64,000 bases of DNA from Natrarchaeobius halalkaliphilus (GTDB lineage: Archaea; Halobacteriota; Halobacteria; Halobacteriales; Natrialbaceae): positions 248,001 to 312,000 of the forward strand of contig NZ_REFY01000002.1 in NCBI RefSeq assembly GCF_003841485.1, in the 5' to 3' direction. The notes beneath the pieces were generated by a model. It did no database searches. It was not told where the DNA came from and saw only the letters and a program-made list of their open reading frames with translations. This document shows positions 25,787 through 29,433 of this stretch, piece after piece; within the stretch, counting starts at the first letter, position 1; each line of letters starts with the position of its first letter. The position numbers were made by a program, and so were the translations under genes.

Positions 25787-26803
25787 TCACGACTCGAGTC
25801 GACGCGAAAGCGTCCGTCCCGCGTTGAGCACCGGCAACGCGGGAGACGGATAGCCACGCTCGTAGACGAGCAGCGGGATCGTCTCCGCGCCGAAGTACTC
25901 CTTGAACCGGAAGACGCCGTTTCTGAAGTCCGGCGGTGAGCCTCGAAGCTCGTACGTCTCGTATCCTTCCTCGATTCCCCACCTGATCGCGTGCTCGTGG
26001 AGCAGTTCCGGCGCGTGATACTCGAAGTGATCCTCCGTGACGGCGGTAAAGAGGTGCTGGAGTGCGGACTGTTCGTCGTCGAGTAGATACATGTACATTC
26101 CCTGTCGTTCGCCGTCGACACGCAGCGAGAACAGCGCGATCCGCTCGTCGAACGCGCGTAGCTCACCGAAGAACGAGCGGGGCTGTTTCGGCAGTCCGAC
26201 TCGATCGGCTACCGCCGCGTAGTCGGTGTAAAACACGGATAGCGTCCGTTCGGTCAGCTCCTCTTCGACGACGTCGAAGTCGTAGTCGTGTCCGCGTCGG
26301 ATTCCTCGTCTCCGCTTGCCGTCCATCCCCTCGAACAGGTCGTCCCATCCGCGGGAGAGATCCAGCGTGAACCGACACGAGAGGATCGTCGGCCGGTAGC
26401 CCCGCTGCTCGAGGAGGTCGTGATACCGGACGTAGTTCTGATCGTACGTCCGAATCTCGTTGAACAGGATCCGTCCCGTACAGAGCTCTCCGACGGAATC
26501 GAGCAGTAATTCGAGTGCCGTCTCCTCGTCGGTCATGGTGACTGGACCGCCGTAGCCCGGTCTGATCGAACTCAGTCGATTGATTCGTCCGAGTTCGGTG
26601 ACGAAGTTCGGAAAGACGGCGATCGGATTCCCGCCCTTCGAGACGATCAGGTGCCGCGGCTCGTACTCGAGGCCCGATTCGATCGCTCGGAGCCACTCGT
26701 AGCGGTGCGTGACACAACTGAGATCGGACTGATCGACGACGTTGTTCCACTGGTTCCGGTTGACCGCTTCGATACTCTCTACGTGTCGGACGTCGTGGCC
26801 CAT
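25787..26803 (-). CDS. FemAB/GNAT-fold acyl- or aminoacyltransferase
   Basis: 338 aa. Two GNAT-like halves: MGHDVRHVESIEAVNRNQWN... through SSIRPGYGGP, and a second with KRRRGIRRGHDYDFDV, FYTDYAAVADRVGLP, LFSLRVDGERQGMYMYLLDD and the C-terminal FRFKEYFGAETIPL. That order (R-rich turn after the first half, then the FKxxFG-A end) is typical of FemAB-like/CelD-related transferases that attach amino acids or acyl groups to surface polymers. It lies downstream of an ATP-grasp ligase and a barrel protein, 112 bp from the latter. The substrate is unknown. Confidence 0.75.
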   Translation of the reverse strand: MGHDVRHVESIEAVNRNQWNNVVDQSDLSCVTHRYEWLRAIESGLEYEPRHLIVSKGGNPIAVFPNFVTELGRINRLSSIRPGYGGPVTMTDEETALELLLDSVGELCTGRILFNEIRTYDQNYVRYHDLLEQRGYRPTILSCRFTLDLSRGWDDLFEGMDGKRRRGIRRGHDYDFDVVEEELTERTLSVFYTDYAAVADRVGLPKQPRSFFGELRAFDERIALFSLRVDGERQGMYMYLLDDEQSALQHLFTAVTEDHFEYHAPELLHEHAIRWGIEEGYETYELRGSPPDFRNGVFRFKEYFGAETIPLLVYERGYPSPALPVLNAGRTLSRRLES

Positions 26804-26915
26804 CTATGGGGGTGGGTTCGACGACGACGTACATAATTACGAATCCGCTTCCTGAGTTACCGTCCTCCTACACGACCGTTGCCCACCGTTTTCTCATCCG
26901 TTCGTCCACCGCTTT

Positions 26916-28187
26916 TCATCCTCGCAGTCGGATACGCCAGAGATGCCTCGAGAGTGCGTAGGCCATCCAGGCCTGACACCACCGCATCAGCGTGAACCGC
27001 TTCGTGTACCACCGCCGCTGCTGGTAGTAAAACTGCCCGTCGCCCGCGTAGAGGGCGTCTCGCGTCCAGTCGATGATCCGGCGGGCGAAAGCGATATCGT
27101 CCAGTTCCGAGAAGACGACGATGCCCTGTGCAGCCGCGTGGATATCCCGCGGATACGAACTCGATTCGTCCCACCTCGGCGCGCCGTCGTCGTCGAACAG
27201 CCGGTGGCGGTAGAACTCGAGGGCGCGCTCGAGCGTCGCGTCGTAACGGTCCTCGTCCGTTACGTCGTGATGTCGAACCAGCGACTCGACGATGAAGCCG
27301 TTGTGGAAGTTATCCATCGAGAGATGCGACGCCGTCGGCGGATCCGTGTACATCCAGCCGCCCAGCGCGGTCTGTTTGCTCGTCACGTAATCGAGGATAG
27401 CGGTCGCCGCCTCGAGCAGCCGTCGTTCGCCGGAGTCGTCGTAGAGATCGAGCAGTAACCTGGCTCCGAGAGCGTTCGCGTTGAGCGTATAGGAATCGCG
27501 TTCGGACGATCCACCTCTCGAAGCGGTGTAGTTGATGCGAGCACCCTCGTCGATCTCGGTGTACGCGAGGTCCTCGAAGACGAACTGGCTCGCGGTCCGT
27601 GCAACGTCGGCGTACCGCGGTTCCGCCAGCGCGTTCGCTCCGCACAACAGGGCTCTCACGGCGTACGACGTCGAGACGACGCCCGACACCTCTCCCGGCG
27701 TCGAGGCACCGTCGCTTGAGAGATCCTGCAGCGGGTGGCGGTGACCGCCGCCGCCGAAGCCGGTACACCACTCGTTCTGGGTCTCGAGCAACCACTCGAG
27801 GAGCGAGCGGGCCTCTCGGGCGTAGCGCTTCTCGCCCGTGAGTTCGTAGACGTCGAGGTTGGCAAGCGCGAACAACGCGGCTCCCTTGTAGTTGCGTCGC
27901 TGCTCGACGGCGAAGATCGGTCGGAGGTTGATCGGCGCTCGTTTGATGACCTCCTGGACGCCGAGGTTGACGAGTTTGCTCTCGACGGGGAGGCGATCGA
28001 GATAGGCGCTGCTGAGGCCGTCAGCGTAATCCCAGCCGGTGTAGTCGCGCTCGCTCGCGTACGACAGGACGTCGGTACAGAGACGAAGGGTCGACTGCTG
28101 GTCGCGTTCGAGAGGGGTGGTCATCGGTCTCGTCTCGGCTTCGCTGTCGCCTCCGGTCGTGGCCATCGGTGCGTCGGTCTTATCCAT
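26916..28187 (-). CDS. Alpha/alpha-barrel (glycan-processing-like) protein
   Basis: 423 aa, soluble, no signal peptide. Helical repeats such as YKGAALFALANLDVYELTG, RYADVARTASQF, YTLNANALGARLLLDLYDDS and DNFHNGFIVESLVRHHDVT show an (alpha/alpha)-toroid like glycoside hydrolases, epimerases or terpene cyclases. In haloarchaeal databases I recall relatives labelled antibiotic ABC transporter permease, which the sequence does not support. Its start overlaps the end of the ATP-grasp gene by 8 bp, so both are translated from one mRNA. Confidence 0.7.
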   Translation of the reverse strand: MDKTDAPMATTGGDSEAETRPMTTPLERDQQSTLRLCTDVLSYASERDYTGWDYADGLSSAYLDRLPVESKLVNLGVQEVIKRAPINLRPIFAVEQRRNYKGAALFALANLDVYELTGEKRYAREARSLLEWLLETQNEWCTGFGGGGHRHPLQDLSSDGASTPGEVSGVVSTSYAVRALLCGANALAEPRYADVARTASQFVFEDLAYTEIDEGARINYTASRGGSSERDSYTLNANALGARLLLDLYDDSGERRLLEAATAILDYVTSKQTALGGWMYTDPPTASHLSMDNFHNGFIVESLVRHHDVTDEDRYDATLERALEFYRHRLFDDDGAPRWDESSSYPRDIHAAAQGIVVFSELDDIAFARRIIDWTRDALYAGDGQFYYQQRRWYTKRFTLMRWCQAWMAYALSRHLWRIRLRG

Positions 28188-29433
28188 ACGTTTCCCCCCT
28201 CGAGGAGGATTTCGACTGTGATTCCCCGTTCGAGTTCTGTGTGGCTGTCGTCCCGATTCCGTTCTCGGACGAGCGCCGGCTCGTCACCTTCTGTGCGACG
28301 TCCGGCGGCGGGGTAAGCCAGGCCCCGAGATCGCGCGGATCGACGTCCCACGCCGCGTCGGGTCCGAAGACGGTTTTTACGTACTTCGAAAGCGACGCCT
28401 CATCGAGGTTCTCGAGGTGATACTTCAGTTCCCGGAGCGGGAACACCATCTCGCCGCTCGTTTCTGGTGTCTCGGTGAGCGACCGGGCCTCGAGTCCGAG
28501 GTGCTCCGCCACGATCGTCGACGCGAACCGGTAGCCGAACCGGCTCGCGAGCGCGTAAGACGCCCAGAACTTCGGATTGATCTCCATCAGGACGAACGTC
28601 CCGTCGGATCGACGCTTGAATTCGACGAGGGCAATGCCGTGCCAGCCGATCTTCCGAAGCAGCCGGATCGCATCCCGCTCGAAGCGGGGTTCGTCCAGCA
28701 ACTGGAGGTGGGTTCCACTTCCGCCGTGGCGCGGAACGGATCGAAGCTCTTCGTGCGTACAGACGAGTTCGACGTCGTTGTCGAAACACAGCACGCCACA
28801 GCCGTACGTCGACCGTGATCCGTCGACGTACTCCTGAATGAGCACCTCGTTCTCGGGTGCGCTCGCACGAATCCGGTCGTACGTCGACCAGAAGTCCGCA
28901 GCATCGTCTACCGGCGCGGTCGTCGCCGCTCCGTTTTCGGTTCGCGCCTTGAGAAACACGGGAAACGGGAGCCGATCCGAGACGGACGGTCGTCCGTCGG
29001 CATCGAGGTCCGAAACCAGAGCCGTGTACTCGGTCGGCGTGTCGATCCCGAGTTTGTGGCCGGTCTCGAGGGTCGCGCGCTTGTCGGCCGCGGTCCGAAA
29101 CGACTCCGACGGCGGCAGACACACCGAGACGCCCGCCGGTACGTCGGATCTGATCGCATCCAGACTCGACGCCGACTCGTAGCCCACCGGAAGCACGATG
29201 TCCGGACGGGATTCGGTGATTACCGCGAGCAACGCGTCCGCGTACGTCGACTCCTCCGGCGGCGGAACGACGGCGGCGTAATCGCAGTACGTCGAGCGCA
29301 ACAGCCTGCTCTGTCGCGTCGTTCCGATCCCGACGATCGTCGCCTCGAGGTCCTCCGTCAGCTCCCTCGCGATGACGAGGGACGTATCGTAGTCCCCATC
29401 GAGCACCAACGCCGTCGGCCGATCCGAGTCCAT
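28180..29433 (-). CDS. ATP-grasp carboxylate-amine ligase
   Basis: 417 aa. Residues 1-110 are the pre-ATP-grasp Rossmann part (TALVLDGDYDTSLVIAREL). The ATP-grasp core has FPVFLKARTENGAATT near 165, EVLIQEYVDGSRSTYGCGV, and the metal-binding end GTFVLMEINPKFWASY near 300. The C-terminal about 60 residues are Ser-rich and disordered. Such enzymes form a carboxyl-phosphate and join it to an amine. A TATA box 28-35 bp upstream marks this as the first gene of the three-gene cluster. Confidence 0.85.
   Translation of the reverse strand: MDSDRPTALVLDGDYDTSLVIARELTEDLEATIVGIGTTRQSRLLRSTYCDYAAVVPPPEESTYADALLAVITESRPDIVLPVGYESASSLDAIRSDVPAGVSVCLPPSESFRTAADKRATLETGHKLGIDTPTEYTALVSDLDADGRPSVSDRLPFPVFLKARTENGAATTAPVDDAADFWSTYDRIRASAPENEVLIQEYVDGSRSTYGCGVLCFDNDVELVCTHEELRSVPRHGGSGTHLQLLDEPRFERDAIRLLRKIGWHGIALVEFKRRSDGTFVLMEINPKFWASYALASRFGYRFASTIVAEHLGLEARSLTETPETSGEMVFPLRELKYHLENLDEASLSKYVKTVFGPDAAWDVDPRDLGAWLTPPPDVAQKVTSRRSSENGIGTTATQNSNGESQSKSSSRGETYG

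Follow-up and report, generated by a model that had tools for sequence, protein, structure and literature searches.

The window analysed here is a stretch of 64,000 nucleotides from the 3.5-Mb genome of the haloarchaeon Natrarchaeobius halalkaliphilus (NCBI RefSeq assembly GCF_003841485.1, contig NZ_REFY01000002.1, positions 248,001 to 312,000), in which three adjoining genes encode an ATP-grasp ligase, an alpha-barrel protein and a FemAB-like transferase (hereafter the trio). The three open reading frames (ORFs) lie where a preliminary description of this DNA had placed them, and both the 8-bp overlap between the first two genes and the gap of 112 bp between the barrel and FemAB-like genes were confirmed from the ORF coordinates. 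The features of the locus, in window coordinates, are as follows:

28180..29433, minus strand: ATP-grasp ligase (CPSase-like / D-Ala ligase-like), predicted carboxylate-amine ligase, 417 aa (ORF and Pfam)
28180..28187, minus strand: 8-bp overlap of the ATP-grasp stop and the barrel start (ORF coordinates)
26916..28187, minus strand: barrel protein, (alpha/alpha)6-toroid of the VpsJ-position family, predicted uronate epimerase, 423 aa (AlphaFold, Foldseek, hhalign)
27303..27305, minus strand: codon of barrel His295, at an inner-helix N-terminus, invariant in 100/100 family members (alignment and model)
27138..27140, minus strand: codon of barrel His350, at an inner-helix N-terminus, invariant in 100/100 family members (alignment and model)
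25787..26803, minus strand: tandem-GNAT transferase resembling FemX, predicted to transfer amino acids from aminoacyl-tRNA to a sugar amine, 338 aa (AlphaFold, Foldseek, profile)
25901..25903, minus strand: codon of FemAB-like Lys301, invariant in 30 sequences, aligned to FemX Lys305 (alignment)

The overlap is likely to couple translation of the barrel to that of the ATP-grasp gene. No membrane helix or signal peptide was found by hydropathy analysis in any of the three proteins, and the highest Kyte-Doolittle mean over 19 residues in the barrel was 1.24, against 2.8 for a membrane control. The name 'antibiotic ABC transporter permease', which NCBI gives to the barrel, is therefore wrong, since the protein has no hydrophobic segment and its structural model is a soluble toroid; the objection already raised to this name was sound.

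The conservation of the trio was followed in 61 genomes of relatives, 21 of which contain the barrel. The order ATP-grasp, barrel, FemAB is intact in six genomes from three genera of one family (the window genome, G001, G002, G003, G016 and G017), and for this reason the arrangement is considered more than chance. The ATP-grasp and barrel genes overlap or nearly do so in most genomes with an intact trio, and overlaps of 4 or 8 bp were also found in G001, G002, G003, G042, Halostella and a metagenome-assembled genome of Natrialbaceae. Moreover, the ATP-grasp (at least 50% identity) and FemAB (at least 62%) genes occur in an identical set of nine of the 61 genomes, namely the six with the trio, G005, G032 and G042; these represent about four lineages and therefore not nine independent events. 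In G042, the barrel adjoins the ATP-grasp gene and FemAB is located elsewhere, while in G005 and G032, which belong to one genus, ATP-grasp and FemAB are separated by ~5 kb within a cluster containing a deacetylase, a DUF354 glycosyltransferase and a flippase, and lacking the barrel. It was also observed that, at loci L129 and L130 of a genus without the barrel, the ATP-grasp orthologue lies between oppositely oriented secreted proteins of Tat or lipobox type (the n46 family), which may replace or use the modified glycan.

The association between the ATP-grasp and barrel genes extends beyond the intact trio. In 10 of 12 distinct cases, the gene immediately upstream of the barrel encodes an ATP-grasp protein, in all ten of one subfamily that is at least 49% identical to that of the window. 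These barrels fall into two separate clades, one of seven members (Halapricum included) and another of three, so that the label 'ATP-grasp directly upstream' takes two changes on the barrel tree, a value as low as which was reached in none of 500 shuffles. FemAB is not restricted to the trio, since remoter relatives (42-53% identity) sit at other loci of other genomes. A conserved housekeeping locus with pyrG-, guaA- and carA-like genes, present in seven further genomes of this family (L140-L146), houses a second FemAB subfamily (42-49% identical to that of the window), and no glycan genes lie near it. The preliminary description had raised the question of whether the three genes scatter independently in related genomes. 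Paralogous FemAB genes also occur without the trio, so that the linkage holds for close orthologues only.

Regarding the FemAB-like protein, Pfam recognised the Acetyltransf_6 (3.6e-9) and FemAB (4.1e-8) domains, and a profile comparison matched FemX at 1.6e-15. In a Foldseek search with its AlphaFold model (mean predicted local distance difference test, pLDDT, 91.5), the nine best PDB matches were FemX and Sbb17/Sba18, which are aminoacyl-tRNA-dependent enzymes (E 1.8e-17 to 1.8e-16), with FemX at E 1.8e-17 and a template-modelling score (TM) of 0.70; aminoacyl-phosphatidylglycerol synthases and tandem acetyl-CoA GNATs ranked below them. Lys301, invariant in the 30 sequences aligned, coincides with K305 of FemX (1xe4), which we take to be its catalytic residue. 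Although identity to FemX is only 16%, the tandem GNAT fold is shared and the position of the lysine is kept, and on the grounds of this modelled fold and this residue the protein is most likely a transferase that uses aminoacyl-tRNA as its amino-acid donor. To our knowledge, archaea have no peptidoglycan, so the acceptor must be an amine other than that of FemX. The orthologues also matched TIGR03019, the XrtA-associated FemAB equivalog (5e-11 to 8e-16), with the protein under the curated cut-off (42 bits versus 260).

A different explanation would be that the FemAB-like protein is an acyl-CoA-dependent N-acyl- or acetyltransferase and that the ATP-grasp enzyme makes a free small molecule, such as a dipeptide or an osmolyte, with a loose coupling to glycan synthesis. 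The GNAT-type Pfam domain, the location of the trio amid housekeeping genes in the family of the window and the paralogous FemAB genes that other genomes carry at a carA/guaA-like locus speak for it. However, we consider it improbable, as the best structural matches are aminoacyl-tRNA-dependent, with tandem acetyl-CoA GNATs lower in rank, the lysine of catalytic type is kept, and orthologues lie in glycan clusters with a deacetylase at L129, L130 and L066.

The ATP-grasp protein matched Pfam CPSase_L_D2 above the cut-off (2.2e-6) and NCBIfam PRK12767.1-1 below it (6e-18). Its K162, E271, E284 and N286, nucleotide- and metal-binding residues of the ATP-grasp type, are invariant in nine homologues, and from its sequence the protein is predicted to be a carboxylate-amine ligase.

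The AlphaFold model of the barrel (pLDDT 88.5) is a soluble (alpha/alpha)6 toroid, a fold in which the active site is found at the N-terminal ends of the inner helices. The residues that all 100 of the archaeal and bacterial members compared have in common include Y220, H295, H350 and R402, and in the model they are mostly located at these ends. The top Foldseek matches were AGE and cellobiose 2-epimerases (E 1.7e-8, TM 0.60), followed, with nearly equal scores, by the glycoside hydrolase (GH) families GH76 and GH88 and by polysaccharide lyases (PL). The barrel resembles the 2-epimerases in its toroid and in the invariant histidines at inner-helix ends, and differs from them in lacking a weighty Pfam or PDB sequence match: the AGE Pfam family was absent from the matches of 32 barrel members, and the PDB profile match reached E 0.006 only. 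No curated family model names the barrel in Pfam and NCBIfam searches, and a viral structure library gave no useful match to its model. Matches to LanC, prenyltransferases and squalene cyclases were dismissed as toroid-repeat noise.

In Pfam, the barrel of the window reached toroid glycosidase and lyase families only below threshold, and the scan of the 32 members returned GH76, up to 4e-7, in 10 of them, as well as pectate-lyase and GH127/GH88 families. Membership of GH76 was not accepted because the window barrel has no such match and the conserved residues lack the Asp-Asp pair that constitutes the GH76 motif. These matches, together with the nearly equal Foldseek scores, nevertheless favour the notion that, within the same glycan pathway, the barrel would be a cytoplasmic enzyme (glycoside hydrolase, lyase or transglycosidase) with a trimming or proof-reading function on lipid-linked intermediates. 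We hold this to be rather unlikely, considering that a protein without a signal peptide would have no access to the exported polymer, that an Asp-Asp pair of the GH76 kind is absent from the invariant residues, and that the barrel is often linked to uronate-making enzymes and not to degradation.

The gene neighbourhoods of the barrel family bear on its role. Among 82 distinct barrel loci, FemAB was found within 9 kb at 56, a DUF354 glycosyltransferase at 48, a polysaccharide deacetylase at 46, and WecB or WecC at 42. In Halapricum (L066), DegT, Gfo/Idh, WecC, GT2, WecB and deacetylase genes form one row that leads to the ATP-grasp-barrel pair. In Haloferax mediterranei, the row comprises an acetyltransferase, DegT, Gfo/Idh (UDP-GlcNAc 3-dehydrogenase family, 2e-67), a UDP-ManNAc-type dehydrogenase (4e-89), WecB (above the cut-off), a VimE-like deacetylase (1e-15), the barrel and two successive FemAB genes; this barrel has the locus tag E6P09_RS16710. 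The recurring company of polysaccharide deacetylases that had been proposed earlier was thus borne out over the family and in relatives where the deacetylase is directly linked to trio members (L066, L129 and L130), but not beside the trio of the window. A second barrel in the window genome, with 51% identity, adjoins a DUF354 glycosyltransferase, another FemAB and a polysaccharide deacetylase. Two barrels per cluster, one of them from a divergent clade (34-35% identity), were observed at L048, L099 and L118; at L048 and L118, the divergent barrel stands beside a distinct DUF354 protein and a WecB/WecC pair.

WecB or WecC was also near the barrel at eight of nine loci from archaea outside Halobacteria, on a Methanosarcina plasmid, where wecB lies immediately upstream of the barrel, and at three of three proteobacterial plasmid loci. 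A GT4 glycosyltransferase and one of WecB/TagA type flank the barrel in Pseudoalteromonas, Vibrio sp. and Burkholderia, a position that by gene order is the slot of vpsJ; the homologue in the VPS-like cluster of Pseudoalteromonas aligned with the window barrel over 370 columns (hhalign E 1.9e-49). An AMP-binding ligase-like gene, and not ATP-grasp, occurs in two of these three bacterial clusters, and no FemAB was recognised. Since WecB/WecC accompany the barrel in two domains of life, the common denominator is the synthesis of UDP-N-acetylmannosaminuronic acid (UDP-ManNAcA), and FemAB, ATP-grasp and the AMP-binding ligase-like gene are variable additions around the barrel. Because it regularly travels with WecB/WecC, has an epimerase- or lyase-like fold and occupies the vpsJ slot, the barrel is the natural candidate for a uronate C5-epimerase. 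The gene immediately upstream of the barrel in Burkholderia arboris (L153:13162-13962) belongs to a polysaccharide lyase family (PF14099, 3.6e-27), and no ligase or FemAB was recognised within the stretch of this cluster that was read.

In the window itself, the neighbours of the trio are housekeeping genes (serS, TrkA-like, PRODH and MgtE-like), and inspection of these neighbours revealed no WecB or WecC at the locus. The GC content at third codon positions of the trio equals that of the window, and a horizontal-island origin was thus rejected. The MgtE-like transporter is split into two adjoining half-size genes (window:23642-24795), and this pair lies beside the trio in all six trio genomes. 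Elsewhere in the genome, the Wbp set (acetyltransferase, DegT, Gfo/Idh and sugar dehydrogenase) stands side by side at C2:171985-176355, WecB is at C3:127013, and a deacetylase is found at C3:96641, on a contig other than that of the trio. A second wecB-wecC pair (C2:481635-483955, L167) is located away from any barrel.

It is proposed, at about an even chance, that the trio is the decoration module of a surface glycan built from aminoacylated aminouronic acids. The analysis shows the gene content, the conservation of the three genes as a unit, their predicted folds, the conserved candidate catalytic residues and the frequent company of WecB/WecC, deacetylase and glycosyltransferase; from these we infer all reactions and substrates of the scheme, as well as the identity of the amino acid and the order of the steps. 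WecB, WecC and the Wbp-type set (acetyltransferase, DegT aminotransferase and Gfo/Idh dehydrogenase), encoded elsewhere in the genome, would supply a sugar of the UDP-ManNAcA type or a 2,3-diamino-uronic acid, on which the VimE-like deacetylase would free an amino group. The barrel, a putative cytoplasmic toroid enzyme, would epimerise the uronic acid, most probably at C5, converting ManNAcA to L-N-acetylgulosaminuronic acid (L-GulNAcA), with histidine and tyrosine residues possibly acting as acid and base at the toroid mouth. From aminoacyl-tRNA, the FemX-like protein would pass an amino acid on to the freed amine of the sugar, and the ATP-grasp enzyme may form an amide on the uronate carboxyl with an amino acid or ammonia. 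Of the readings considered, the addition of amino acids to a surface sugar, as had been suggested from the sequence, has the strongest backing from folds, protein families and gene neighbourhoods, while the lipid offered as an alternative acceptor found no support.

A similar logic is known from the Wbp/Vim pathway of Porphyromonas gingivalis and Tannerella forsythia, which makes a 2-N-seryl/glycyl-3-N-acetyl uronic acid linking sugar. In Porphyromonas, VimE frees an amine to which VimA, a TIGR03019-like protein, adds serine or glycine (PMC7468200). Haloarchaeal barrel clusters bring together Wbp-type enzymes, a VimE-like deacetylase and a TIGR03019-related FemAB; the haloarchaeal deacetylase matched the VimE model NF053580 at 2.7e-16, although with 59 bits against a cut-off of 440. 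Homologues of WbpA, WbpB, WbpE and WbpD, a deacetylase and FemAB are all present in the window genome, with the NCBIfam names resting on the equivalents in H. mediterranei. Unlike the haloarchaeal clusters, the published pathway has no counterpart of the barrel or the ATP-grasp enzyme, and in the window genome the genes are dispersed over several loci. We know of no type IX secretion system in archaea.

A link of VimA-type sugars to the sortase/exosortase systems of Bacteroidetes and exosortase bacteria has been proposed (PMC7468200), which raises the further idea that the trio would make an aminoacyl-sugar nucleophile to which an archaeosortase joins processed surface proteins. The proximity of the FemAB-like protein to TIGR03019, an exosortase-linked FemAB, the VimA-exosortase link proposed in the same work (PMC7468200) and a PGF-pre-PGF protein in a paralogous barrel cluster point in this direction. 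Even so, this is very improbable: the barrel occurs in 21 of 61 relatives, which is too patchy for a general anchor, and the loci that were read yielded no recognisable archaeosortase gene, no search having been aimed at archaeosortases. The gene in question (L033:5107-6426) encodes a conserved putative secreted protein beside the deacetylase, with a near-threshold PGF-pre-PGF domain (TIGR04213, 2.4e-6), and recurs in about 16 paralogous barrel clusters, hinting at a link between glycan clusters and archaeosortase substrates.

Other surface polymers carry comparable sugars. In the Vibrio polysaccharide, as known from V. cholerae, GulNAcA is amidated with glycine (PMC3901696); the C5-epimerase and the glycine-adding enzyme have been called unknown (PMC4432689, a review; PMC3901696), as is the function of vpsJ (PMC5109742). 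The bacterial barrel homologues, which occupy the vpsJ position in the company of WecB and WecC in Vibrio sp., Pseudoalteromonas and Burkholderia, recall this system; identity is about 29%, and an AMP-binding ligase-like gene takes the place of ATP-grasp in two of the three clusters. Gulosaminuronic acid, glycine and bridges of N-glycyl-glucosamine are constituents of the Halococcus wall (PMC4187196); no Halococcus was among the named matches in a pattern-based scan that detects close relatives only. The Methanococcus archaellin glycan bears ManNAcA6Thr, whose amino-acid-attaching enzyme was unidentified in 2010 (PMC2952790). It is likewise an archaeal WecB/WecC-derived uronic acid bearing an amino acid, although it belongs to an N-glycan of a methanogen. 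A bolder and more doubtful proposal, which we put forward tentatively, is that the barrel family represents the missing C5-epimerase (ManNAcA to L-GulNAcA) in bacteria and archaea, as a new (alpha/alpha)6 family, and that the haloarchaeal FemX-like and ATP-grasp steps would lead to glycine-bearing wall polymers of the halococcal type.

Several observations weigh against the proposed decoration module and the role assigned to the barrel in it. The fold match of the barrel is at the superfamily level (TM 0.6), with hydrolases and lyases about equally close, and the VimE and TIGR03019 matches fall far under the curated cut-offs. The vpsJ assignment comes from the order of genes in the three bacterial clusters, not from V. 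cholerae VpsJ itself. WecB/WecC are not within 9 kb at 40 of the 82 barrel loci, and in the window the sugar genes do not adjoin the trio. Finally, at L129 and L130 the ATP-grasp and FemAB orthologues occur with a deacetylase and a flippase and without the barrel, which is therefore dispensable for those two.

The individual parts are of known kinds (FemAB folds, ATP-grasp ligases, vps clusters and the Wbp/Vim pathway); what is new is a single barrel family linking these systems, the probable role of this barrel and, in archaea, its combination with a step that depends on tRNA. Beyond correcting the misleading name 'antibiotic ABC transporter permease', the proposals would, if they hold true, name the C5-epimerase of the Vibrio polysaccharide and the genes for archaeal amino-acid-bearing sugars, which have been chemically known for decades in Halococcus and Methanococcus, and would reveal a tRNA-dependent, peptidoglycan-like chemistry in the surface polymers of archaea.

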